Assembly: GCA_000310025.1 (NCBI GenBank)
Contig: FN649751.1
Coordinates: 6,730,698 to 6,794,697 of the forward strand
Length of the DNA stretch: 64,000 nucleotides
From: Ectocarpus siliculosus
Lineage: Eukaryota > Sar > Phaeophyceae > Ectocarpales > Ectocarpaceae
Direction: 5' to 3'
Shown: positions 3,101-25,630 of the stretch, one piece after another
Numbering within the stretch: position 1 is the stretch's first letter
Layout: each line of letters opens with the position of its first letter
Program-made: the position numbers and the translations under genes
The notes under the pieces: model-generated
The model's input: the letters and a program-made list of their open reading frames with translations, nothing else
What the model was told of the DNA's origin: nothing
Database searches by the model: none

Positions 3101-6100
3101 CCGCATTGGCCGAAAAAGCACGTCAACCACAAACAAGGGACGATCATCATCGTGAAAGCATGCGGGAACGTAGGAGGTTTAGATGCCGAAACGTATGTAT
3201 TGTGTGTGGTTAGGGGTGCCGACATGATGTAGATATATCACATACTGTAGCTTCGAAGCTGCTCACAGGCGATCTGGCTTGAAGGGGGAGGACTCTTATT
3301 GGTTGGTATGGATTCAAAGATTTGAGATGGAGAACTGACCCAACGTGATGTACGGAGAGCGCTGTCAGCGACACACTGCATTGCCAAGGACACTGTTCCG
3401 ATCAGAGTCGTTTTGTTTCAGCAAACTACTTCATGCGCTGTATCACAACCTATTGACCTTGTCACAATCTCCCACACTACTGACAGTTTTGCTAAACCGC
3501 CCATGGGACACCCATGGGTCACCCATTGGTCACTCATGGGCCGGCCATGGGCACTTCATGGGCCGGCCATGGGTCGGCCATGGGCTGCCCATGGGCGGCC
3601 CATGAAGGCCCCCCCGTGGGCACTTCAACCTAGAACTTCGCCGCCGGCACATCAACCTAGATCTTAGCCACCATGGCCAACCTAGAACGTGTCTTGTGGG
3701 CTTGGGATTGGGGTTAGGGTTAGCGTTCAGGTTATTAGCCGCTATAGCGCCCGTTCCAACGCGGATAATTTATTGTTTAGGAGTACACTAGTTCGGTTGA
3801 AGGGCTCTCATTGGCCGCCCATGGGCTTTCCATGGGCTTCCCATGGGTCGCCTATGGGTCGTTTGGGAAAACTGTAGAAAGTGTGGGAGACTCCCTTGGC
3901 ATGCCAATTGTACCGACCAGTCGTTTTGATTCGTTGGCCTCTTTTTCAGATTTTTCTTGAGGAAGTTGTGCGTCGGTCTATTCCAAGCAAGGTATCTGTA
4001 AGAAACCCATCCTGTCCATGCGCGGGTTAATTCGGAACCTCGAGGTACGTTTAACGGTTGTCTACGGTCTGCGAATCGCAGGTTTGCCGAAGAGGCGAGG
4101 CGACGGATGCGGGAAGCCCTGGAGTCAAAGGACAAGGAAAAGGTCACCGCTCTGAGAGAGATGGAGGTACAGTAAACGCGCATTTTCCCTTCTTCAGTGA
4201 ATGGTCAACGGTTGAGCCATGCGGCCCGCACTGACCTAGAAGTGGCGTGAACTCCGTTCGTTCGAATGTAACGGTTCGAATGATATTACTTAGCGACACA
4301 TGGATACAATCTTCATGTATTAGCCGGTATTTCGTAGGGATCAGTTGCATCGAGTGGTTTAGTATATGGAATTGTGTTGCTAATCTCATACTCCTCTTAC
4401 TCCACGGCAGACGCACGCCGACCGACGGTTCATGGAAGCCGAGGCCAGTCACCGGGCAGTGGAAAGGAACCACGACAGAGCTCTGGTCGCTATACGAGAA
4501 GAGGCAAAGAAAAAGGTGACATTCTATCGGATTCCACGAAGCCCCCCTCGGGTGTGGTAGTTCTTATAGATGTCCCACAGGCCATGCACCTTCCTCTACG
4601 AAACGAAACTCCATCATCAAACCTCGAGACAGGGAGTTGGTCCCAATGCCATCGGTGTTCAATCCACCGTCTTGGCGTACGCTCATAACGCTTGCGACGG
4701 CCGCCGCTGATATCATCATTGCTTCCTTGAGATATTTTCGATTTCTCAAAGAGAGAAATAATGCAGGTTTCGAACACTTCTCCAACATTTGTTCGCGATG
4801 CATTCGATCGAGCTGCGTTGTGGTGCACCAAACCATGTTGAAGACATTTCTCCTTACATCAGCCATTGTGACCGAATTTTTTCTTTTTGTACATGACTCT
4901 GACCCCCGTTCGAAACCTTACACACCACTCGATCGGTTCCTTGTCCCACCTCCGGACTAAACGCTCGATCTCGATTCCGATTTGGTGGCCTACTATATAC
5001 AACGATAGCTCCTGGAAGAAGAGGCCAGACGAGTGCGCGAAGTGTCTGATGCCAGAAAAAAGTCTAAGGCGGTAGTCGAAGCACTCCAGGTGAGAACAGG
5101 GTACCGCAGCTGACTCTAACATTGTAGCAGCATCGCACAACCTTGTCGGCCTGATCAAGGATATCGCGCAGTTTAAGAAGACCAACGAGAGCACAAACGT
5201 TGGACTACAGTCGATTGTTGGTGAACAATGGGATAGCCTTGGTACGTGGAACGCCTTACTTTGCTGCCTCCCCTGCAAGGTTTGCCCGGTTAAGATAGCC
5301 TCCATTTGTACCAAGAGTTCGTTGGTAGCCCCCTGATTTCCTACACGAAAGCTTACCGTACTCATCGGACATGACGTCGGACCTCACTTGCTTCCAAGTC
5401 AACTTGAAAGCCGATCTTGGTACGTACCGTGGTCAAGATTGTGAAGCATAATTCAACCGGTTTCGAGTTCGAGACTCGAATTCCGAGTGGGGGTACGCGC
5501 GGGAGAACCAGCTCTACAGTGGACCCTGTACGTGTTGGTTGTGTTATCCTCACGTACAGCCTTCACGGCGGATTGCAACGTTTCTCGGGATTATTCACCA
5601 GACTTTGCAGGGCGAACTAACGCAGTCCGAGGCCAAAGGTTCTGGCCTGGAGAGGCAAGTCTCGCAGCTTTCCGCGCGCATGAGCAGAGCCGGTTCGTCA
5701 AGCGTAGCCCCTGCTGGCGGTAATGGAGGCGATGGTAGCAGTGCGTCGGGCAATGGCGGCGTCGGTATGGAACGCGACGGTAGAGGCAGCAGCGGCGCGA
5801 GGGGGTCCGAAGTAACCGAGGCGGAGATGACATCTCTCCGCCGGCAGATGAAGGCCGCCACCGAGGTTAGCCTTGCCTTTCATTGTCGGGCCTCTGGTTT
5901 CGTTGTCAGGCGGAGTTTTGGCTGCATTTCGGAATCGCTTCCATAGCGATTTTGCAATCTCCGGTGATTAGCACCGCGAGAGATTGAGCAACACTGGGTT
6001 GTTCAGTCGCACTAGGGGGTTGGTCACGTATTCGGAAGAACGAGGCACTGCACACGAAAAGAACCAACAAAGGTTTGCCGACGTCAGTCGTTTATCATGT

Positions 6101-9094
6101 GCTATTGGCCCGCATCCTCCGAACGAGGGCTCACTGCCGCTGTTCCCCTCCCATCTACTTGGCATGTTACGTTCGGTCGAACTGCAGGCGAAAGAAACAG
6201 CACAGCGGAGCGCTTTGGAGGCGCGATTGCGTGCGGACGAAGAAACCAAGAAGCGGAGGTCTGTCAGTTCCCACGTTCAATCTGAACTACAAATTTAGGA
6301 AGGTTTCCCGGGATAGTAGAATGAACGAGGGATACAAAGTGACTGATGGGAAACGTAAAAACTATCGCTGGAAGAGCGAGGGTTCACTCACTACGCGTGA
6401 AGGTCTTTGTGCAAGTGGTATTTCTGGGAGTCCAGATCTGGGTTCTGACTGCACGTTGGAATTGTTTTCTCGTACGATCTTCTTGCCGCAGCTCTTTGGA
6501 GGAGTCACTATGTCGAAAGGAGAGCGATATGCTGGCGGCGCTCGAAAGGCTCAACCAGCTCAAGATTCGGCAGAAGGTAATAGGGTCTACAAATGCATTT
6601 TCTCCCAATTCTATCCATTCTCATCCACTTACGACTGTGGCATCCTTTCCTGAAGAGGTCGGCCAGGGGTACGACAGAGGGGGGTAGACCGAAGCGCGAC
6701 AAAAGACGGCACATATGCGAACGAAAGCAAGTATCAGCAATAATTACAGGTCGGAGACTATGATGTACGGTACATTTGTGGGCATCAACTCGGGAAGAAC
6801 CTGGCTATGTGCTGTTTCATTCGGTGCCTCTAAAATGCGCTGACAATTCAACGTAGGAAGTGGAAGAGCATGCCCGAGAAGGCGAGGAGGATCTGAGGAG
6901 TCTCGTGCGGCAACGAGAGTCGGAAATCGAGAGCCTCACCCGGAGGTTTGTAACGTCAATGACCCCCAGGGTTTCAAACAAAGCAAACGTTGAATAAGCA
7001 GAGGATGATTGAGACTACTTTGCAACACCCAACCTCCTAACGTGCCACAGTGAGCAGCTCTAAGAGGGATTGTTTCACGAAAACTCTTGACTCCTACATC
7101 CGCTGGATTCACCTTGCAGACAATGTACAGTCCATATGCCATACAAGACCCACTTGCCATCGTGCATCACCCTCCAAACCCTCGTCACATGAACATACTA
7201 CTTCCATTCTCCATCCCCCCCTTCTTGTTTTTCCAGACTGGCATGACTACATACATCGGTATGTTGTTTACGAGCGCTGTCACAACTTGGTGCCAAGGCT
7301 GATCGTTGAGCAGCTTTGGTTCCTGTTTGTATAGGAAAAGCCTACTTCATGGACACTGTTTTCCTCTGAGCCTATGCAACTGTTTGCGTTATTGTCCATG
7401 CAGGAATCAAATCCTCAACGAAGCCTTGTCACGCCTGACGTCGGCGGACTCTTACCCAGCCGATGTCACTACGGCGGGGAGCTTGTCAGCCGTATCGACA
7501 GTATCAGCAGGCGTTAGGGCAGAGGGATTCCCAGCAATCCCAAAACTAGTGGACAGGGGGCGAGAACTCGCGGCATCCCTCCGAGGTATGCTGGCTGTGC
7601 TGACGCGAGCGTGTGATGTTGATGAAGTTGTTGATGTTGTGGTATTGAGCGCTATCGCCAATGATGAACCGTTGGTGGTGCTCCGTAGTGCTTCTTTGCA
7701 TGCATTGAGAAGCCTTGGTGTAGTTGGTACAGGGTCGGCGTAGTGAGTGAGAGTGCTAGTTTCGAAGGGTCCCGTATGTCGATGAAAGTGTTGGTCAGCT
7801 GGCAGGCGAAGTATTCGTTTTTCGTTTCGTTTACTCTTTCTTGTCTAGCTATACCAGCACGGATATGGCTTCATTCAACGTCCTCTTAGCAATTTGGTGA
7901 TAGCCTTTGTGGAAATGACGAGGTCTACAGTAGTTCTTGCTGCACATGGGAAGAAGCGTCACAATGGGTGTTGACGTTCAATATTGCGAAAGAGATACGT
8001 GCGTTGACAAAAAACGCAGGGAGCCAACACGAATCATTGACTGAGGGAGGGTCATTACTGTTCTTGTCCATCACTACTCGTACTCGATTCCATTTGGACC
8101 AACAGATAGCTGGCAAACCGGGTCCGCCTCTTCCTTCTCTCCAACACTTCATGAGGGTGCTGGAAACTCCCTCCTAGGGTTGGAGGCATCCCTGAGTGTC
8201 CTTGCCAATGAGAGTACAGGGTTTGAGCCGCCTGCACCCCCAACGGTAGAATCCGACGTTGGCTATTCGCGCCAAGACCATCGCGCCAAAGGCCGGGGAA
8301 CAGAGGTAAGAATGGACGGCAGCAGCAACCTCAATGACGGCGACCACGACCAAGCAGGTACCAGTGTGGAAGATGAACGGAACGGACGTGACAATGGCAC
8401 ATCAACAAGAGGGGGAGGAGTGCCCCCCACCCAAGAACCACCAGGAGGGAACATGGCTGGCGAAGGGGCAGAGCACCGCCACCATGGGAACGCGATCGCC
8501 ACCTCTTCCGCTAAAAACAATCGTTCCACGTACGAGTACCCTGCTGCTGCCGCTAAGGCGGTAGAAGTTAGGCCCAGGGCGGAAATCACGTCGATCGAGC
8601 GCGGTAGCAACGGAGGAGTGGGAGTGCTCCACGGGGTTTCCGCTGCAATGGCGTCTGGAGCACTAGCACTGCCTACAGCTGCAGTCCCGGCGCCAGCCTT
8701 AAAACGAGACAGGTTAGGCTCAGGCAGCAGTCACAAAGATGATACCGGCGACGGCCATCGGGCACCATCTGACTACCTCCCCCATTTGTCAGGCGGTGGC
8801 ACTAGGGATGGTGGGGAGCGGCGGAAAAACGACGGCTCGCATAGCACGTCGCACACTGGCAGTGGCGCCCACGACCGCGGGAACATCAGCGACGTGAGAA
8901 GCAGAGCGGTCGCAGACGGAAGAGTGGATGGCAATGATGGCGCTGTTGGTGATAGCGCTGGTCAGGACCAGGCAGAAAAAAGGAATGCAGACGACGGGGG
9001 TGAACAAGCGCGGCGACACATTGATGAGGCGCTACGGAACCGGGCCCTTCGTAGGAGAAAAAGGTCTAGTGGCGAAAAATGTCTTGGGTTGTAA
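168..9094 (+). CDS. Long coiled-coil protein, 3' part of gene (15 exons seen)
   Basis: Not recognised as a named family. Exons that join in phase: 168-236, 554-661, 1093-1160, 1710-1788, 2274-2387, 2820-2968, 4082-4166, 4411-4515, 5009-5089, 5611-5865, 6188-6258, 6492-6576, 6857-6945, 7404-7717 and 8106-9094. Every donor is GT and every acceptor AG. Exons 1-14 encode almost continuous Glu/Lys/Arg/Ala/Leu-rich heptad sequence, for example LLEEEARRVREVSDARKK and SLEESLCRKESDMLAALER, broken by a Gly/Ser-rich stretch in the 5611-5865 exon. Exon 14 ends in a helical non-coiled segment. The last exon (about 330 residues) is Gly/Ser/Asp/Arg-rich and probably disordered, ending RRRKRSSGEKCLGL. The start codon lies upstream of the window. 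The join of the last two exons is the least certain: if it is wrong, the protein ends at the TAG at 7741-7743. A structural or scaffold role is likely from the coiled coils, but the partner is unknown. Confidence 0.72.
3468..3890. mobile_element. Fold-back/MITE-like element with CCATGG palindrome arrays
   Basis: Ends are inverted repeats of about 35 bases: TCTCCCACACT..CAGTTTT..AAAC at 3468-3503 and its imperfect complement at 3854-3890. Inside each end lie runs of CCATGGG-type palindromes, spaced about 11 bases at 3500-3610 and again at 3812-3862. The middle holds a short telomere-like GGGTTAGGGTTAG at about 3713-3725. There is no coding capacity. No clear target-site duplication flanks it. 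It sits in the 2969-4081 intron of the coiled-coil gene. Confidence 0.7.
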
Positions 9095-9220
9095 GGTTCT
9101 AGGCATCGTCTGGACCCTCCCCACCCCCCGACAACGAGCGCTTCACAAAATGAAGCTGTTGTTGTGTGTGTTTTTTTTTTACACCTACCTGTAGCACCCC
9201 CTATTAATTGTTCACATTTT

Positions 9221-9565
9221 TCAAATGCGGGACATTTGAACATACTGCGAACACATCTCTGTGGAGGTATCTTTGAATTTCGTATCACGGAGTAACCCCA
9301 ATACTTCCTCATGAACGCCGAGGCCCTTGAACATATCGTCCTCAGGCTCCTCCGAATTTTCAATAAGGGCAGCGGAATACCCAAGCATATCAATCGGCAG
9401 AACACCGACGATATCATGAAATACAGGGATGGAGTCCTACGGCTTGTACCCCTTGCCGAAACACGGCCTTATCTCTGCCTGTGCTAATGATGAGACGTCA
9501 TCATCGCAACGTCTAGCATCTCGCAAACAAGAGAGAACATCATCGTGAAGTCGAGGTTTTTGCAT
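9221..9565 (-). pseudogene. Small coding-like frame broken by one stop
   Basis: On the minus strand an ATG at 9565 opens 42 codons (beginning MQKPRLHDDVLSCLRDARRC), stops at TAG 9437-9439, and continues in the same frame for 71 codons to TGA 9221-9223. The second part includes PVFHDIVGVLPIDMLGYSAA and an acidic EEPEDD patch. Composition looks protein-like on both sides of the stop. I do not recognise the family. It may be a decayed gene or transposon remnant, an exon pair with an unseen intron over the stop, or chance. Confidence 0.35.
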
Positions 9566-10027
9566 TGGCAGAACCGCCGGGTCCCCGGGTGGCGCTTAGA
9601 TCGCCGTCAAGTCTCAAAGAAACGCGCCTGTCTTTGCCACGTCTGCCCCCGGCTCCCGAATACGTTCTTCAGTGACGAAGAAACGCCGGAGCACCCTGAA
9701 AATCAAGAGCTTTCGTCAAGGAGAGCAAGATCTGGCCACCACGGATGTAGGTGGCGATCTCTGCTGCCGTACTGCTGTTATGACGGCTGTCTGGGCTGTC
9801 TGGCAGTTCCCAGAACCGTTTCGTTTTACCATGCTGTTGGGCCAATTGTGCTATGTAGTTGTCCTGCTTCATCCGGAACCCGCCCGCGATTGGGTTTGAG
9901 CTCTCTCTCCCAAGGTCATCATCGTTGTTCGTTGCTCGTTACTCATTTTCTTCCCCCAGCAACAACCGCAGTCGCCAATTTCGAGTTCCCAGCTTCGGTG
10001 CGATCGGAGTTCCGAGAAAGTGCTGGC

Positions 10028-14165: not shown

Positions 14166-14844
14166 AGGCAACGATTAAAGCAAGAACGAAAATCGACAGG
14201 CTGAAGTCAGGACGCCAAGTATTCTGTGTGCACTCTGCAATACCTCAAGCAGCCTGCACGACAAAAATACCTCCAGTGCTCCCTGCGCATGTCGGGGTCG
14301 ACAAAGTCACGCGCACTCTGTGGTCTGCCGATTCACTCAGGATGTCTCCGACATATCAGCGGCATGGGGATTCACCGGAAGCACCCTTGCACTGGCAATA
14401 AGCATAGGCATCAGGTGAGCATCAAAACCTCCAACTAGAGTGAAAGGGTGATCGCCCGCCCAGAGGGCCAAGCCTCCACAACACCCTATTTTCTCAGAGC
14501 AACGCGAGCATGACCGTACGACACAATACTGACGGAAGGACAACGAGGCAACCCTAAGGATATGCGTTTATGCATAATCGAATGAGATTGTGAGGCGTTG
14601 CGAGATATATGTGTGACAAAGTACACCTTCGCGCACGTCGCTCGTGCTGGCTGGCTGCCTGCGGAAGGTAAAAGTCACAGGCAGGGGCACCATGTGTTGT
14701 AGAATGACTCGAACCGGGGGCGGGCAAACGTACTTGGCAGTAGACGAAAGAAAACGTATCGTGTCTCGAAATATGAACACAACAATTGAAATGCTTGAAC
14801 GTAGGAGTTGATAGATCCTACAAACAGCATTTTGGTTTTCTAAA
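14166..14844. other. Non-coding stretch upstream of the methyltransferase
   Basis: I see no gene here. It holds the 5' flank of the minus-strand methyltransferase and the left target flank of the retrotransposon, whose A1 repeat starts at 14845. Confidence 0.5.
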
Positions 14845-15138
14845 GGGGAGATTTGTTGTAGGAGCAGACGGAAACAAATCAAGGTTTATTGAAAGTAGTC
14901 GAATTTGTAACGTCGTTGTTAGGGTATGCATAAATTGCTACGGAAATACGGGGTCCCCTCCCAAGCGGGAGCAGGGGAGTAGCCACCACCTCGGCACTCT
15001 ATCGAAGCTAGGTGTTCACACAAAGTCTTACGAGGACTAGTCTAGAGAGAGCAACGCAGAGACAAGGAGCGAGGTGGACACTGTGAGGGCTTCGAGTGGT
15101 TTGCCAGCTGGAGGAGCGGCAAACAAGTTTGGTCTTTC
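14845..15138 (+). repeat. Retrotransposon split repeat A1
   Basis: 294 bases beginning GGGGAGATTTGTTGTAGG and ending GGTCTTTC. The same sequence recurs at 23876-24169, with a T/C difference in GGAAA(T/C)ACGGGG. It is preceded by TAAA, which also precedes A2 and ends B1 and B2. Confidence 0.95.
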
Positions 15139-16149
15139 AATCAGCGAGCCGTGGGGACCCGAGAGGGCCGCCCAACAGCAGCAGCAGTTGTACGAGGGAG
15201 AGCGCTGCTCCATCGCGGTGCTAGAGGAACGCCGGGAGTACCGACGCGTGTGCACACCACTGAACGGTACGAGTGGGTCGATATGTGTGGGTCGATAGGA
15301 TCCGATGCACGTTGGGTGTAATACTGGTAGCGATCCAGTCGCGATTGTTCCACCTCTGCCGTTGGGTTGCTGGGGTGATCGCAGGCGGCGGGAATTTTAA
15401 TTTGAGCATGGGTGCATACATGGAGGCACACGCCAATTCGCCAGCTGACGTACAAAACGCGACCGGTGTCCTCGCAGGCACGTAGCCATTACGGCGCAGA
15501 GATGGTCGCGGATACACGGCACAGTGCATGCAAGCTGAGATGGATGTCAATTACGAGGGCAACACACCGAAATATCACGAGGCAACACATGGAAACAATT
15601 TTTTTTTGGTTGTTTACTTGTTCAAAGTACGCTACTGTATCACCAGGGTCCTTGGTTCGGTGCGGCATGCTGGATGATGGGCTGCTGTGTACTGATACCA
15701 TGCCGAGACATATCAGCTGAGATATACGGATCATCTGGCATACGACATAATTGCATGCATGAAATGATCACAGCCCAGCAGCGCACGTATACAAACCAAT
15801 TGCTGTTTGGTAAAACCAATTGATGGTCGTTGTGGATGTGCATACAATATGCATATGCATTATGCTGGAAGTCATGAATCCGACTCACAGAGGCTCTGAG
15901 TAGCAGTACAATGCGTAACATGGAATCATCTGGTTCACATTTGGTCTCAGATACGCGCCGCTTACCAGGGTTGTCGTCTAGCGCAATTCACGCAGATACA
16001 AATCTGCCGGAACCAAAACACATAAAAAGTGTTTGGCGGCGGTGGTAAGGGAGGGGGGGAGCGATTGTCAACAGTGATACATACCTAGTAAGGGATGTTA
16101 AACTCGGGCAATTACCCTACGCTCCACAGGCATTACGAAATAGAGTTAC
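15139..16149. other. Retrotransposon 5' internal region without a gene
   Basis: Between A1 and the tandem array I see no convincing coding frame. Short local repeats occur (GTGGGTCGAT twice near 15270-15297). This may be the promoter and leader region of the element. Confidence 0.4.
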
Positions 16150-18620
16150 AGCAATGCAGGGTCCACACACACAAATAGTGCGCGGCGGCTGTGATGGTGG
16201 AAACGTTTGATTATCAATAGTGCCACATATAATTCACGACACCGAGATCCATGCCGGAACCACACGCATACATAGGGTGTGGCGCGTACATACAGAGTGC
16301 ACATACTGTACCGGATCCACACACATCCAGAGTGGTGGCGGCCGTGGGTGGCAGGCTTGTTTGTTAAACATCGCTACTTACCAGGGTTGTTGCTCAAGGA
16401 GCGATTCACGCCTAACAACAGAGTACATACACCGGAACCACACACATAAATAGTGGGTGGCGGCCGTGGGTGGCAGGCTTGTTTGGTAACAGCACTACTT
16501 ATCAAGGTGGTTGCTTGGAAGCGATTCACGCATAAATACAGAGTACATATGCCGGGACCACACACATAAATAGTGTGTGGCGGCCGTGGTGGGTAGACTT
16601 GTTTGTTAAACAGCGCTACTTACCAGGGTTGTTGCTCGAGGAGCGATCCACGCATAAATACAGAGTACATATGCCGGGACCACACACATAAATAGTGTGT
16701 GGCGGCCGTGGTGGGTGGGCTTGTTGTTCCAACAGCACTACTTACCAAGGTTGTTGCTCGAGGAGCGATCCACGCATAAATAGAGAGAGTACGAATGCCG
16801 GGACCACACACATCAATAGTGTGTGGCGGCCGTGGTGGGTAGACTTGTTTGTCAAACAGCGCTACTTACCAAGGTTGTTGCTCGAGGAGCGATTCACGCA
16901 TAAATACAGAGAGTACGAATGCCGGGACCACACACATCAATAGTGTGTGGCGGCCGTGGTGGGTGGGCTTGTTGTTCCAACAGCACTACTTACCAAGGTT
17001 GTTGCTCGAGGAGCGATCCACGCATAAATACAGAAATGCCGGAACCACACACATAGATAGTGTGTGGCGGCCGTGGTTGGTAGGCTTGTTGGTAAACAGC
17101 GCTACTTACCAGGGTTGTTGCTCGAGGAGCAATTCACGCATAAATACAGAGTACATATGCCGGGACCACACACATAAATAGTGTGTGGCGGCCGTGGTGG
17201 GTGACTTGTTTGTTAAACAGCGCTACTTACCAGGGTTGTTGCTCGAGGAGCGATCCACGCATAAATACAGAGTACATATGCCGGGACCACACACATCAAT
17301 AGTGTGTGGCGGCCGTGGTGGGTGGGCTTGTTGTTCCAACAGCGCTACTCACCAAGGTTGTTGCTTGAGAGGCAATTCACGCTTGTGCACAGAGGGTATG
17401 AATGCCGGGACCACACACATCAATAGTGTGTGGCGGCCGTGGTGGGTAGGCTTGTTTGTTAAACAGCGCTACTTACCAAGGTTGTTGCTCGAGGAGCGAT
17501 CCACGCATAAATACAGAGTACACATGCCGGAACCACACACATAAATAGTGTGTGGCGGCCGTGGTGGGTAGGCTTGTTTGTTAAACAGCGCTACTTACCA
17601 AGGTTGTTGCTCGAGGAGCAATTCACGCATAAATACAGAGTACATATGCCGGGACCACACACATACATAGTGGGTGGCGGCCGTGGTGGGTAGACTTGTT
17701 TGTTAAACAGCGCTACTTACCAGGGTTGTTGCTCGAGGAGCGATCCACGAATAAATACAGAGTACATATGCCGGGACCACACACATCAATAGTGTGTGGC
17801 GGCCGTGGTGGGTGGGCTTGTTGTTCCAACAGCGCTACTCACCAAGGTTGTTGCTCGAGAGGCAATTCACGCTTGTGCACAGAGGGCATGAATGCCGGGA
17901 CCACACACATCAATAGTGTGTGGCGGCCGTGGTGGGTAGGCTTGTTTGTTAAACAGCGCTACTTACCAAGGTTGTTGCTCGAGGAGCGATTCACGCATAA
18001 ATACAGAGTACACATGCCGGAACCACACACATAAATAGTGTGTGGCGGCCGTGGTGGGTAGGCTTGTTTGTTAAACAGCGCTACTTACCAAGGTTGTTGC
18101 TCGAGGAGCGATTCACGCATAAATACAGAGTACACATGCCGGAACCACACACATAAATAGTGTGTGGCGGCCGTGGGCGGGGGCTCGTTGTTCCAACTGT
18201 GCCATTTACCGGGGTTGTTGCCTGCGAGGCAATTCACGCTTGTGTAGAGAGGGCATAAATGCCGGGACCACACACATAGATAGTGTGTGGCGGCCGTGGT
18301 GGGTAGGCTTGTTTGTTAAACAGCGCTACTTATCAAGGTTGTTGCTCGAGGAGCGATTCACGCATAAATACAGAGTACCTGTGGCCGGAACCACACACAT
18401 AAATAGTGTGTGTCGCATGTGGTTGGTAGGCTTGTTGTTAACAGCATTACGCACCAGGGTTGTCGCTTGAGGAGCGATCCACGCAGACAGGGTATATGCC
18501 GGAACCACACACATCAATGGTGTGTGACGGACGTGGTTGGGGAGCTTGTTGCCACAACAGCAGTACCCCTCGAGGTGTCGCCTTGGGCGATTCTCGCAGT
18601 CGAGCATGTGTCGAAACAAC
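16150..18620. repeat. Tandem array, about 20 units of about 121 bases
   Basis: Units carry, in order, CAGCGCTACTTACC, TTGTTGCTCGAGGAGCG, ACGCATAAATACAGAGTACA, a short inverted repeat with arms CCACACAC and GTGTGTGG around ATAAATA or ATCAATA, then CGGCCGTGGTGGG. The inverted-repeat core recurs at about 16437, 16558, 16679, 16802, 16927, 17044, 17165, 17286, 17411, 17533, 17655, 17776, 17901, 18023, 18144, 18266, 18391 and 18508; more diverged units lie at both ends. Four-unit blocks about 490 bases apart (near 17200-17650 and 17690-18140) are nearly identical, so the array has higher-order structure. Frames open through it only by chance, because the unit is not a multiple of three. Confidence 0.93.
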
Positions 18621-18713
18621 TGCATGTACACACACGTTCACCAGTCATTTTGTGAGGCAACAAAATGTTGAGCATTCCGAAACCGCGGGTCGTGCATGTT
18701 GTAACCGCTTTAG

Positions 18714-20204
18714 ATGGCTATTGAAACGAGGTCGCGCCAAGGGCGAACGGCAGGAAGAGGGCGGACTGGTGTGCGGGGGGCGGCCAGGTCTGCTGGGCGG
18801 TCTACGTCGAGGGCCGCGGCGGCAGCAAAGTCCAATGGGCGCTCCATGTCACGGCGGCCTTCCCGGGCGGTAGTGCGTACGCCTGAGCGGGGAGCGGGCC
18901 GCCCGTCACGGGCACGGTCGTCCCCCAGAGACGGGGGCGACGGAGGCACTGACCGCGCCACTATGGACGGTTTCCGCCGTGAGTTGGAGGAGCTACGGCG
19001 CCAGACCGCGGAACGCGACGACGTCATCGAACACCTCCAGGAAGTCGTCGCCAGCAGGAACGGCGCGATCCAACAGCTCCAGGCCGAGATCGACGACGTT
19101 GTCCGTCGGGGTCCCGATTCCGATCCGCCGGAGGCGGGCGCCGCGGGAGCGGGAGCTCGCGCGGAGAACGGCGAGGTGGCCATTGTGGGGACGGTTGCGC
19201 CGTCAGCGGGAGCGGGACGAGCGACGGTGACGATGAACGTTTCATCCGGACACATTCAGCAGGTCGCTTTCAAGGAGGACCTGAAAGCGTGGCGCAACCC
19301 CGCCGCCATCAAGCCCTGGCTCATCACCACGGAGCGGCCTCCGTTCGTCGGAATGTCGAAGACGAACATGCAGGCCGCCCTGCGAAGTGTAGCTCACGTG
19401 TCAGCTCCGGTGGTGGAGATGCTGAACAATCTGTCCGACTTCGATATGCGTATGTTTGTGCCGAACGGGGACGACACCAGCGGGGAAGGGATCTCCCTGC
19501 CAGAGCACCTTGAGATTTTGATCGAAGCCATACAGACGATAATATCGAAGGGCGTCATGTCCGACGAGGGCCTCCAACGCGTAGAGGTCCTGGTCAAAGG
19601 CCTGGACCGAGGGCTGAAGATGTTGCGACGGCACTGCAACGAGTTTCGCAGCAAGCTGCGCAGCGCCGAAAACTACGACATGATGGCCGGACTGGTCAAC
19701 GATGACCTCAATTGCTGGGCGGGGGAGCTTTTCGACGCGGCGACGACGTTCGCCAAAATACACGTGTCACCGCCGACCGCCGCCCAATTTCCCGCCGTCG
19801 TCACGCCGGCGTGGCCCGACCTAACGGCATACGTCAACGCTGGCGGCCTCCGCAACTTATCCAACCAGCCACAGCAGCGGCAGTCGTCCACATCAGGTTC
19901 GGGCAAGTCAAAGGCCGCGACAGCCGCGAGGAAGGGCGGGAATCAGTATTGCTTCGCCTTCAACTCGGAGGAAGGATGCCGTCGATCGGCCCGCGATTGC
20001 CGATGGGTCCATGCTATCGATCCTAACACACGCGGTGGCAAACGGGCTGGGGGTCGCGGCAAGGATGCTTACGGCAGTGGCGGGGGGAGCAAAGGGGGCC
20101 GGGGCGACGGCACCAGCGGCAGTAGTACCGATCGCGGGGGAGTCCGCAACAGATCTTCTAACGGTGGCGGCGGCCGCGGTGGAGGCGGAGCCAAGAGCCA
20201 CTAG
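18714..20204 (+). CDS. gag: Retrotransposon Gag-like protein with CCCH zinc finger
   Basis: 496 aa from ATG 18714. The N-terminus is very Arg/Gly/Ala-rich and basic (residues 1-85). Residues about 86-135 form a coiled coil (FRRELEELRRQ, then EHLQEVVASRNGAIQQLQAE). A globular middle follows. C413, C422, C429 and H433 form a CCCH zinc finger (C-x8-C-x6-C-x3-H), and the tail is RGG-like (Gly/Ser/Arg/Lys), both suited to binding RNA. It is the first gene of the element; pol starts 75 bases after its stop in another frame. It presumably packages the element RNA in cytoplasmic particles. The Gag assignment rests on position, coiled coil and zinc finger, not on close homology. Confidence 0.82.
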   Translation: MAIETRSRQGRTAGRGRTGVRGAARSAGRSTSRAAAAAKSNGRSMSRRPSRAVVRTPERGAGRPSRARSSPRDGGDGGTDRATMDGFRRELEELRRQTAERDDVIEHLQEVVASRNGAIQQLQAEIDDVVRRGPDSDPPEAGAAGAGARAENGEVAIVGTVAPSAGAGRATVTMNVSSGHIQQVAFKEDLKAWRNPAAIKPWLITTERPPFVGMSKTNMQAALRSVAHVSAPVVEMLNNLSDFDMRMFVPNGDDTSGEGISLPEHLEILIEAIQTIISKGVMSDEGLQRVEVLVKGLDRGLKMLRRHCNEFRSKLRSAENYDMMAGLVNDDLNCWAGELFDAATTFAKIHVSPPTAAQFPAVVTPAWPDLTAYVNAGGLRNLSNQPQQRQSSTSGSGKSKAATAARKGGNQYCFAFNSEEGCRRSARDCRWVHAIDPNTRGGKRAGGRGKDAYGSGGGSKGGRGDGTSGSSTDRGGVRNRSSNGGGGRGGGGAKSH

Positions 20205-20279
20205 GGACACGGGCTCTGTCATGCGACAGGGCCAACCTCGACGAGCTACCCGCGCGCGCCTTCCGCCGAGGGTGCTGTG

Positions 20280-22629
20280 ATGGAGCCGACGAGGACGGCG
20301 CCGAGGAGACAGCAAGGTGGGATTGAGAGCCTTGATGAATGCGCCGTGGCATTACAGCAGTTAGCACAGGCCACCGACTCTCAATCCATCCGAAGATCAT
20401 TAGGCACTTTAGCAGATTTGAATTTGGAATGGCTTGACAGGAATGATGGCCATTTCGAATGCATGCTTGAAACATTGCGTACACTGCCTTGCCCGCGAGT
20501 TGAAGCCGCACAAGTTCGGCGGTGGTTCGGTACCGTGAAGGAATTTCCAAATATCGATCTGTTGATTCAAATTGTCAGCGAGGGAGCCCCTGTAGCGGTC
20601 ACCGGACAAGGAGAAATGCGGGCTGCCATAGAGTACGGAAACCACAGTTCGACTAGTAGATTCTCGGTGGAGATCAGGAAAAAAATTGTGGAGGACGTTC
20701 TGGCCGGTCGAGCGTTTGTATTNNNNNNNNNNNNNNNNNNNNNNNNNNNNNNNNNNNNNNNNNNNNNNNNNNNNNNNNNNNNNNNNNNNNNNNNNNNNNN
20801 NNNNNNNNNNNNNNNNNNNNNNAGCGTTTGTATTTCCGCGGGAGGCGGCTAGTCGCATTCCGGGCATTCGCGTGTCACCGATAACAGTTGCTGCGTCGGC
20901 GTCGAAGGTCAGAATATGTCACGATTTGACCAACGCTGTCGCCGGGCGAGGCGTCAACGACGACACCGACACGTCAGCAATTCCGGAATGTAAGACCGGA
21001 CATGTCCTTCGGGAGGTCATCTGGCGCATTTTATATTTGCATAAGCTGGGCGTGCGTGATGTTGCGGTTCCTCCCCGCATACTGCTAGCAAAGATGGATA
21101 CTAAGAGTGCATACCGTCAGGTGCCGGTGGAGGTGAAAAAGTCACCGGTTTTCAGTTATATGTTCGAGAACTCTGTAATAATAGATCGATGCCTGCAATT
21201 TGGGTGGACTAGTTCGCCATCGTTGTGGGGTGTATGTGCAGCAGCTGTGGAACACGCACACAACAACACGTCTTTTTCGAGTGCTGAAATCACGCGTGAG
21301 GGACGCGAAGCCACAAGTCATGTACATGTAGTGCCGGCAAGAGAACACGAGGTCCGTGCCAAGTTGCCTCCCGAGTGCGTTTTTCCCCCGGGTTCCGGAG
21401 GGAGGCTCCGGGACAAGTTTTGGGTGAGGACATATGTCGATGACGCGTTATTTGTCGAGTTGGAGAGTTTCCTAGGTGGAAGGCGATGCATTCGAGCGTC
21501 CCAATCGTTCGCATCTGACAGCTTTCGTTTGTTCGGTAACCGTGACTCCGGAGAGCCCCCGCTGTTTGCTCAGGAGAAAACCACCCCATGGGATACGCGC
21601 GTGGAGATGTTGGGCTGGATGATAGACACAGTGGCCATGACTATTTCGGTTCCACTAGCGAAAATAGCACAGCTGCGAGAGCTCCTGGCAGAGTGGCCAA
21701 CAGACCGACAGTCGGCGTCAGTCAAGGATGTACGATCTTTGCTAGGCAAGCTGTTACACTTGTGTGAGGTAATCCGGCCTGGCAAGTTTTTCGTGTGCCG
21801 AATTCTGAACCAGCTGAAGCTAGCGCCACTCACGGCGAAAGACACAACCACGTCAGGGGTTGTTGACCGTCGCACGAAACGGTATGGGCGCGTGGAGTTG
21901 GGTCCGGAGTTCCACGATGATTTAGGTTTTTGGCGACTCGTCGTAGAGATGGCCACGGGAGCCGATGGTGTCACTAGATTGGGAGCTCCCCTGTTCTCTT
22001 GTTTTGTGCAGCCGCCTTCCCTGACTCTAGTAAGTGATGCGAGCGGGGATGGCATGGGAGGATATTGCTTGGAGACGGGCCAATGGTGGCGGGTTGATTA
22101 CGAAGAAGACGTTCGAGTTCGCCTTCGCACCCGCGTGGAATCTAGGGACGATTTGTCGGTGAACGTGTTCGAGCTGCTAGGCATGGTGCTGACGGCGTGG
22201 GCGTTGACTGTTCACGCCGGGACGCGGCCAGAGTACCCGGGGCAGAGTATCTTGATGAGGGGAGATAACATGAGTGCTGTACACTGGGTCAACAAATGCA
22301 GGGGGGCGCAAGAGCCTAGATCGGGAGCACTTATGCGTATGCTAGGGTGCTTAGAGATGCGCAGCGGTTGGCGGTTTCGGGCCAAGCATATCCGAGGCGT
22401 GCATAATACTTTGGCTGACGGTATTTCGAGATGGACGCGTGATGAAATCGCTGTTAACTTGCACGCCTACCGGCCCGATATTCGCTGGCAGGAACAACTC
22501 TTGGGCCAAGAAGCCACGGACATTACTTCCGCGGTCTTGGCCTCAAGCTCATCGGACGATCAGTTGCGAATTCGTCTCAACGCAATTACGCGTCAGGTTT
22601 CCGGTCTTGGTGTGTCTTTCGCAGGATGA
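20280..22629 (+). CDS. pol: Retrotransposon reverse transcriptase / RNase H (interrupted by assembly gap)
   Basis: The ATG at 20280 opens an N-terminal region. The frame then meets 100 Ns at 20723-20822 and resumes as the RT domain. RT motifs seen are MDTKSAYRQVPV, FGWTSSPSLWG and the catalytic YVDD at 21433-21444. RNase H follows, with acidic residues at codons 22036 (SDASGDG), 22171 (NVFELLG), 22264 (MRGDNMSAV) and 22417 (LADGISRW). This RT-RNase H order and the LADGISRW end are typical of DIRS-order elements. The 12 bases before the gap are repeated after it, and dropping the Ns plus one copy makes one open frame of about 745 residues. The stop overlaps the start of the recombinase gene as ATGA. 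Confidence 0.95.
20723..20822. other. Assembly gap (100 N)
   Basis: Exactly 100 Ns, a usual placeholder for a gap of unknown size. AGCGTTTGTATT stands directly on both sides, so the contig ends probably overlap and little or nothing is missing. Confidence 0.97.
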
Positions 22630-23654
22630 TGGGTTACGAAAAGTTCTTGAGCGCAGAGTCACCGCACACAGAGATGGTGTGGGCCTTGATTGACTTTGCG
22701 GCGTGGTGTTTCGAGTCGGAAGGAAACCAGGCCGGGACTATATCGGGGAAGTTGGCAGCGGTGCAGTACCACCACAGGGTGGAAGCACATGTAGAGATAG
22801 TCACGTCGTCGCCGTTGCTGAAGTGTGCACTTCGGGGCATTTCTAGGTCCCACGCGGTCGCCGGGGTACGTCAACGAGTTCGATTGCCGATCACTTGGAG
22901 GATGTTGCGAGGGGGTGAGAGCATGATTCCCACTTGGGGAATAGGAGGACGCGTGATGTGGTTATGTTTGAGCTTAAGCTATTTCTTGATCACTCGGTCG
23001 GACGAAATGTTTGCTGACAGTACCGGGGTCGGGCATCCAGTACATTGTCTCACGAGACGGGATGTTGCGTTTTTCTCTGGGGAGGAACAGTTGGAGTATG
23101 TCCGATGGCGAGAGGCGGATAAGATAGAGGTGCACTTTAGAGGACACAAGGGTGACCAGGACCAGACGGGGTCGGTCAGGGCTCGTACACGGGATGAGAT
23201 TAACGGCCCACAATCGGGGTACAGAGCAGACGGCGGAGCAGTTGCGCTGATGTTGGAGCTGTTGTCATGTCATGCAACGTTACCCGATGATGCGCCGCTA
23301 TCATCATACCGTAGCGGCCGTGCAGTGAAGGTTCTGAAGTATGACCAAGCCCTTCGGGCGTTGAGAGAGATTGTCGAGAAGTCAGGGCGAAATCCAAAAG
23401 ACTTTGCGTTACATTCGCTCCGAATTGGAGGGGCTTCCACCTTGGCGGCTGGAGGCAATGTTTCGGAAAGAGTAATCCAGAGAGCAGGAAGGTGGAAGTC
23501 TGATGCGTACAAACCGTATACAGTAGACAACACGGAAGACTCGCGAATGGTGTCACGTATACTTGGGGACAAGGATAAGGGAGTCGAGCGGCAGCCAGGA
23601 GAAGGCACGGTGTGGGGTAGGCATAAGAGGAGGCTAATATCACCGAACGAGTAG
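22626..23654 (+). CDS. Retrotransposon tyrosine recombinase
   Basis: 342 aa; the start ATG 22626 overlaps the pol stop (ATGA), or ATG 22629 may be used. It carries the tyrosine recombinase catalytic set: Arg124 (FLITRSDEMF), His263-x-x-Arg266 (LHSLRIGGAS), Trp290 (GRWKSDAYKPY) and a nucleophile Tyr298 (Tyr295 is a nearby alternative). The family cuts and joins DNA through a 3'-phosphotyrosine; in Ngaro/DIRS elements it integrates a circular DNA copy without target duplication. A position last in the element and directly before B1 matches this group. The overlap suggests stop-start coupled translation after pol. Confidence 0.95.
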   Translation: MMGYEKFLSAESPHTEMVWALIDFAAWCFESEGNQAGTISGKLAAVQYHHRVEAHVEIVTSSPLLKCALRGISRSHAVAGVRQRVRLPITWRMLRGGESMIPTWGIGGRVMWLCLSLSYFLITRSDEMFADSTGVGHPVHCLTRRDVAFFSGEEQLEYVRWREADKIEVHFRGHKGDQDQTGSVRARTRDEINGPQSGYRADGGAVALMLELLSCHATLPDDAPLSSYRSGRAVKVLKYDQALRALREIVEKSGRNPKDFALHSLRIGGASTLAAGGNVSERVIQRAGRWKSDAYKPYTVDNTEDSRMVSRILGDKDKGVERQPGEGTVWGRHKRRLISPNE

Positions 23655-23675
23655 TAGCAGGATGACCTCGAGGTT

Positions 23676-23875
23676 GGCGAAGAAAATGGTAGGGTACCAT
23701 TTTGGGGACTTGGTCATCTGAGACTACTGCGGGCAGTAAGATTAGCCCCTGCACCGAGAAAAAGAGAATTTGTGGTTGCCGCTCGGAGGAAAGAGAGAGA
23801 AGCAGTTGGCACCTCTCTCTTTCCTTCGGCCGTGGAAAAATAATGATGAAGGCAATTCGAAAGGAAAACAATAAA
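23676..23875 (+). repeat. Retrotransposon split repeat B1
   Basis: 200 bases from GGCGAAGAAAATGGTAGGG to CAATAAA, directly followed by A2. It is repeated as B2 at 24233-24432. It begins 22 bases after the recombinase stop and includes AATAAA near its end, which could serve as a poly(A) signal. Confidence 0.94.
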
Positions 23876-24169
23876 GGGGAGATTTGTTGTAGGAGCAGAC
23901 GGAAACAAATCAAGGTTTATTGAAAGTAGTCGAATTTGTAACGTCGTTGTTAGGGTATGCATAAATTGCTACGGAAACACGGGGTCCCCTCCCAAGCGGG
24001 AGCAGGGGAGTAGCCACCACCTCGGCACTCTATCGAAGCTAGGTGTTCACACAAAGTCTTACGAGGACTAGTCTAGAGAGAGCAACGCAGAGACAAGGAG
24101 CGAGGTGGACACTGTGAGGGCTTCGAGTGGTTTGCCAGCTGGAGGAGCGGCAAACAAGTTTGGTCTTTC
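23876..24169 (+). repeat. Retrotransposon split repeat A2
   Basis: Copy of A1 (14845-15138), same length, about one base different. It abuts B1 without a gap. A 63-base GC-rich spacer (24170-24232) separates it from B2. Confidence 0.95.
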
Positions 24170-24232
24170 CCGCCCACCCACCCCTTTCCTTTCGAAGGTG
24201 GGGGGAGGCAAGGACCGTTGCAGTTGCTAATG

Positions 24233-24432
24233 GGCGAAGAAAATGGTAGGGTACCATTTTGGGGACTTGGTCATCTGAGACTACTGCGGGCAGTAAGATT
24301 AGCCCCTGCACCGAGAAAAAGAGAATTTGTGGTTGCCGCTCGGAGGAAAGAGAGAGAAGCAGTTGGCACCTCTCTCTTTCCTTCGGCCGTGGAAAAATAA
24401 TGATGAAGGCAATTCGAAAGGAAAACAATAAA
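24233..24432 (+). repeat. Retrotransposon split repeat B2, right end of element
   Basis: Copy of B1, ending CAATAAA; flanking DNA (AAGAGAATTTAGCC) follows. This defines the right boundary of the element. Confidence 0.94.
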
Positions 24433-25630
24433 AAGAGAATTTAGCCGCCGAATTATGTGTTGGCACACGGCAAGTATTGAGGCATTCGTAAAAACGCCCA
24501 GATTTTGAGGTTGAAGCGATCAGCCGTGACCAACCAAATCCGTTCGGTGGAGGACACAGCATTGAATGCGTAGTCACGGCACGGCCGTCACACGCCATCC
24601 CGCCAAGAGCACGCTCGGCATCGCAAGGAACGCCAGACGAGCGCGAGGGCGTTTCGAGAAACCAGCTGAGACGATACCGAGAGCGCCGAGGCGCTCGACG
24701 ACGGAATCGGAAAGGCCCACACCACGCAGTGGGGATTGCCTGGGGTGTAGGCTCGAGCGGAGTACCTACTGCGAACGGCGGCTGCCAAACACGGTAGGAT
24801 CCGGTGCAGAAAGTGCGACGAGCAAAATTCGCCGACTTGCAGTTGGCTACGAGTTGGCCATTGGAATCATGTAATACGCGATTGGTTTTGGCATTGGAGG
24901 GAAGAATGGCGGAATGCCTATTTCTTGCTCATGTTGGTGCACTCGATGCCTTTGCAATAGCAATATATGTTAACGTTTCGCACCGAAAAGCGCTTTCGTT
25001 GTGTCGAAGTGAATGGTATTGCTCGTGTTGCGAGATTGCGCAAGTACTCACAAAAAATAACAATTATCGGTGGCTCTACTGTGCAATTGGCGCAGATAGA
25101 GGCCGAAGTACATCCGTGAAATTCAGAGTAACTCTTACATGTGCTTGGCCTACAGCTAAGTGGAGTGGAAAGCACAACGGACACAGATCTTGTAACATCA
25201 CGTCAATAATGCTATCTTAACATCGGGGTTTACAGCAATGGTTCGCACATGCGCGTGGAGCAAGCTTCTGCTGCTCCCGCCTGACAAGCCACCGCTCAGA
25301 GCTGTGCACTTCACCACAGCAGCAGTAGCAACTAACGAATCGCGATGAGACAATTCCTTTCATATGCGTGTTCGAGGTCTTCCAGCGAAGATAAGCAGAA
25401 GGGTTTTGCGCCTAAGAATTGGAACGATATGCGGAAAGACATATCAGTATATATGGCATCATGAAACGTGACCAAGAACCACGGGAGAAAATGAGAAACG
25501 CGCCAACAGGAATGTCTTTGTACCCTGTCGTAAGAGATGTTTGGGCACAATGTACTCCTAGTGCAGCAGTGGGCGTTGTAGTCCAAGGACGTTCGCACGA
25601 AACAGTCGGAGTGGTTTGCAAATATCAATC
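24433..25630. other. Non-coding stretch right of the retrotransposon
   Basis: No exon with credible splice sites was found. Open frames here have no protein-like features that I can support. Confidence 0.4.

Follow-up and report, generated by a model that had tools for sequence, protein, structure and literature searches.

Tandem stem-loop units between A1 and gag in a Ngaro-like retrotransposon of Ectocarpus siliculosus

Packaging signals of retroviruses and LTR elements are stem-loops in the leader near the start of gag, and they are kept in non-autonomous derivatives. Usually they are few and single-copy. For tyrosine-recombinase (YR) retrotransposons, we know of no established mechanism by which an element recognizes its own RNA. 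Ngaro elements, as described in Cafeteria, share the arrangement A1-[ORFs]-B1-A2-B2 and the order gag-RT/RH-YR without a methyltransferase between RH and YR, and tandem repeats are unmentioned in the main text of that paper (PMC8547959). Ectocarpus harbors 15 Ngaro families (PMC12477816). Tandem repeats within retrotransposons are known: short arrays within LTR elements are well documented (PMC7004042), and the 5′UTRs of mouse L1 consist of tandem monomers with promoter activity (PMC9022269). The L1 monomers lie 5′ of the first ORF, vary in number between young copies and are 5′-terminal promoters. Plant Ogre/Tat subrepeats are short hypervariable arrays located 3′ of gag-pol, and they seed satellites.

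Here we analyzed a stretch of 64 kb of Ectocarpus siliculosus DNA (the window) with an element that has the Ngaro arrangement but carries, in contrast to the Cafeteria Ngaros, a leader of ~3.5 kb with 22 structured units from A1 to gag. As in mouse L1, tandem units precede the first ORF, but here they occupy an internal position and covary in the manner of RNA. It shares with the Ogre/Tat arrays its hypervariability within a retrotransposon but stands before gag. Whereas retroviral and LTR-element signals are usually few single-copy stem-loops, there are about 20 tandem copies here, with a putative recognition by Gag. In the literature searched (subscription papers outside its coverage), we met with neither tandem arrays in the leader of a Ngaro element nor a tandem covarying RNA module there.

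Host element and extent of the array

The element is Ngaro-like, judging from its order A1-gag-RT/RH-YR-B1-A2-B2, and the surroundings of the array (A1, gag and B1-A2-B2) are as the preliminary description of this DNA had them. All features lie on the + strand. The left split direct repeat A1 (14841-15138, 298 bp) has one mismatch to A2, and is followed by a unique leader from A1 to the array (15169-15859; 95-100% identity in sister copies). A gag-like ORF of 496 aa (18714-20204) yielded no Pfam domain; its translation, read by eye, ends in a C-X8-C-X6-C-X3-H motif and an RG/G-rich tail. The putative RT/RNase H ORF (20824-22629) has a YVDD box, again seen by eye, and a weak Pfam match (RVT_1, E 0.015). 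The tyrosine recombinase-like ORF (22626-23654) was identified from its HSLR ... GRW ... Y motif alone, read by eye; Pfam and PDB sequence searches gave no match, and an AlphaFold model with pLDDT of 30 was set aside. B1 (23676-23875) and B2 (24233-24432) belong to repeat family D7 and A2 (23872-24169) to D6, and together with A1 they form the split direct repeats of the Ngaro/PAT layout. The ORFs follow in the order gag, RT/RNase H, YR. No methyltransferase was found between RH and YR (the RT/RH ORF ends at 22629, YR starts at 22626, no Pfam match), as expected of Ngaro rather than DIRS/PAT types. Ahead of RT/RH, a 100-base run of N (20724-20822), flanked by short duplicated AGCGTTTGTATT, is probably an assembly gap rather than biology.

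The reported tandem array of about 20 units between A1 and gag is real, with TRF and a covariance model (R1, built from 60 diverse units) in agreement. TRF delimited it to 16317-18550 (period 122, 18.4 copies, score 3093; further periods of 246 and 490 bp), and the covariance model found 22 units at 15860-18605, on the + strand only and with no others in the 64-kb window. Nineteen are well conserved (16306-18605), about 122 bp long and each with three + strand stem-loops (P2, P3, P4), as in the example unit at 17522-17636 (128 bits). Three decayed units at 15860-16001, 16002-16092 and 16152-16275 (E 0.017, 1.9e-5 and 6.9e-5) precede them, so that the location given earlier holds, but the onset lies about 300 bp further 5′. 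Units are spaced at 114-124 bp, most commonly 122, with a mean period of 122 bp. The four-unit, 490-bp higher order that had also been reported is true for some blocks: the segment 17203-17502 recurs at 17693-17992 with 99% identity (repeat family D1), and a shift of 490 gives 99.5% identity over the best 200 bases, compared with 95-96.5% for shifts of 122 and 368. It is partial, with 50% ungapped identity across the whole array. No curated Rfam covariance model matched 14800-24500 at E ≤ 1. A coding function was rejected, because unit lengths are variable and mostly not multiples of 3. Elsewhere in the window, palindromic repeats of the CCCATGGG type form a small array (3497-3604) that has no relation to the element.

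Sister copies and gene-poor derivatives

We searched the genome (189 Mb in 492 contigs); of 267 candidates at first look, the best 40 were scored. Searches with the unit, A and the gag start converged on the same contigs. Every sister copy that is assembled across this stretch carries the array, the opposite of what would have refuted the preliminary description. In the 15 copies that we excised, the array is always flanked by A1 on one side and gag on the other, with the gag start about 0.2 kb downstream where the contig extends there. An origin by chance or as an assembly artefact was rejected, because sister copies on many contigs carry the array: it is not a chance satellite but belongs to the element. 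The array is also found in relatives whose gag identity is 82% (C110), 70% (C74) and 72% (C321). The suggestion that the element had seeded a genomic satellite was unsupported, since element parts adjoin the array at all 26 loci examined (with the best 40 of the 267 candidates scored); none of these is a free-standing array, unlike what is known of Ogre.

Intact sister copies carry 13-24 units each. In the strings of unit types, the edges are mostly constant (SUg at the 5′ side, fPfEA at the 3′ side), and the interior differs by gains and losses of blocks. Close copies differ in the interior of the array despite flanks that are >99% identical, so that the array changes in size at roughly the pace of the element's own copying.

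A second, large family (C95, C176 and others) is non-autonomous, with its own A of 304 bp and its own B of 274 bp. By nucleotide comparison, it has no gag or RT, and its YR is reduced to a 3′ remnant. The long array is kept and even lengthened in this family, and its units resemble those of the window at ~85%. Between the family's A and A1, the match spans 65 bp only, and the array has thus outlived the divergence of the terminal repeats. In a copy of this family, a Copia-like element with 191-bp repeats is inserted in the unit array (L048, L058, L059; C95 stitched 5550-9979, reverse strand).

Folding, covariation and strand of selection

The inverted repeat noted earlier, CCACACAC-ATAAATA-GTGTGTGG, was found in the majority of units. 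Its arms are conserved, and its 7-base loop varies (ATAAATA, ATCAATA, ATAGATA, ATACATA). On folding a single unit in the + strand, this palindrome formed stem P2, and two further stem-loops that had gone unnoticed appeared: P3, a long hairpin of ~20 pairs with several G-U pairs, and P4, of the TTGCC...GGCGA type. Compared with dinucleotide shuffles, the mean folding z, which is inflated by the relatedness of units, was -3.3 for the + strand and -2.2 for the - strand in family 1, and -1.9 and -1.2 in the non-autonomous family; the + strand was lower in every family. Typical units had z of about -3.4 to -3.9, and edge units ~0. With some 20 pairs present 20 times in a row, P3 could make the array a source of hairpin-derived small RNA or a decoy against host silencing; the sRNA levels of Ectocarpus Ngaro elements, low compared with those of PAT-like ones (PMC12477816), speak in favor of this. 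We regard it as highly improbable, since a typical long dsRNA would need longer and better paired units.

Covariation was assessed in the alignment of 60 diverse units, with P2 and P3 counted as given structures. Values of 0.393 for P4 (shuffled 0.297, sd 0.020) and 0.170 for P2 (shuffled 0.081, sd 0.012) were reached by none of 500 shuffles each, and both also exceeded slid-partner controls. Across the same alignment, P3 showed no covariation beyond shuffles. Nor did the closing stem P1, which was dropped as a supported stem. Within family 1 alone and within family 2 alone, P3 and P4 paired above shuffled partners, with z again inflated by relatedness. With the tested columns left out of tree building, the double compensations counted on the tree exceeded the null only for P2 (8 against a null of 1.7, maximum 4) and P4 (5 against 0.5, maximum 2), not for P1 or P3. 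In a scan of all column pairs by APC-corrected mutual information, structure pairs ranked 1, 3 and 15 of 5123 (p 2e-4). RNAalifold recovered P4 alone from a sequence-only alignment.

In + strand RNA, a change from a Watson-Crick pair to G-U is tolerated and a change to A-C breaks the pair; in double-stranded DNA the two changes are equivalent. Counted on the tree, changes to G-U against changes to A-C numbered 120:73 in P3 and 33:13 in P4 (pooled p 1.7e-5), compared with 34:44 in P1 and 26:34 in P2, where there was no G-U excess. In unpaired columns, C>U and G>A rates were equal. The excess in P3 and P4, with unpaired columns unbiased, supports selection on these stems in the single-stranded + strand, as RNA. 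Selection on P2 maintains an inverted repeat; taken alone, this stem would fit a DNA palindrome, because it lacks the asymmetry between G-U and A-C.

The DNA-like symmetry of P2 is one of the points that a promoter or enhancer array, comparable to the mouse L1 monomers, would explain: the palindrome would be a site for a dimer and ATAAATA a TATA-like box, and the variable number of units, upstream of the first ORF, would tune transcription. We regard this as unlikely, since the array is internal, with ~1 kb of A1 and unique leader before it in sister copies, the TATA-like loop is the very part of the palindrome that varies, and P3 and P4 are under + strand RNA-type constraint. Moreover, the ~0.7-kb leader at 15169-15859 is kept along with A1 without having a second copy in the element, which implies that full-length template RNA starts upstream of the array. 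The gain and loss of interior blocks between near-identical copies could instead mean that the units are functionless, hypervariable subrepeats that arise when templates are switched or recombination is unequal, like those in the 3′UTRs of plant Ogre/Tat elements, with pairing as a by-product. The compensatory changes and the bias for G-U over A-C argue against this, as do units kept at ~85% identity in families with largely diverged A repeats and lost genes, and we consider it improbable.

A putative RNA signal in the leader and arrays of other families

The array is best explained, tentatively, as a cis-acting RNA element present in many copies in the long 5′ leader of the genomic RNA, and probably as a Gag avidity platform for packaging or reverse transcription. 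We infer that it is transcribed within the genomic RNA, in the sense strand favored by the pairing bias. Each 122-base unit would be a stem-loop module followed by an A-rich unpaired linker, and about 20 consecutive modules would together offer an avidity platform to the Gag of the same element. By appearance this Gag is RNA-binding, and its cysteine-histidine motif and G/R-rich tail would suit such binding. Recognition by Gag would then destine the RNA to be packaged or reverse-transcribed. Gag as the partner and packaging as the step are guesses; among the functions that the preliminary description had offered, packaging fits best with the evidence for RNA structure. The unit number would shift fast by duplication and deletion of blocks, probably through RT strand transfer or unequal recombination, and the redundancy of many copies would make such change tolerable. 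That derivatives with few genes still carry the array is consistent with a signal acting in cis. An RNA module that is repeated, covaries and is kept in such derivatives offers a concrete candidate for self-RNA recognition. If this is true, selection at the RNA level drives what appears to be satellite DNA, and such arrays deserve a strand-specific pairing test before they are labeled junk or promoter.

Other Ngaro-like families of this genome have arrays of their own, which the covariance model of the unit did not match and which are therefore non-homologous to the unit array. Directly before gag, one further family has 121-bp repeats in 3.5 copies (L069, 4659-5084) and another 260-bp repeats in 2.6 copies (L070, 4664-5351); L068 has weaker repeats there, and L071, from a more distant family, has no array before gag. 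Arrays before gag are common, not universal or obligatory, among the Ngaro-like families of this genome.

The abundant YR relatives are 67% identical to the YR of the window, mostly without a neighboring RT match; judged from sequence, they are an expanded YR-bearing non-autonomous family. The array of this family, studied in two copies (L066 and L067, one of them RT-bearing), is a series of hairpins before gag, CAGYACGGG-(21)-CCCGYGCTG, unrelated to the window unit (L066 3873-5400, L067 3860-4600). Its 30 copies are spaced mostly at 50-99 bp, with alternating spacer types and the near-invariant core ACGCGCCAATGAGTGGAAGCA. L066 has an internal gag-RT deletion: A1, array, YR and A2 are kept, and only fragments of gag and RT/RH are left.

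This unrelated hairpin in a family with a 67% identical YR also bears on whether the array might be a DNA-level or single-stranded DNA recombination site, used for circularization or by the tyrosine recombinase. YR elements require such sites, the inverted repeat of P2 is symmetric, and G-T wobble occurs in single-stranded DNA too; however, the element ends and the B1/A2 junction have their own shared sequence, in which the unit is absent, and with the differing hairpin this makes such a site very unlikely. Extending the leader signal to these families, it is possible, if doubtful, that tandem arrays of RNA stem-loops, specific to each family and unrelated between families, have arisen repeatedly in the leaders of Ngaro-like elements here, as a multivalent packaging code for each Gag that non-autonomous derivatives would exploit.

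Genome-wide, we observed ~60-80 near-identical YR genes (for example, G000:C26:3448471-3449418), mostly with an open frame of 415 aa and almost never with an RT match nearby.
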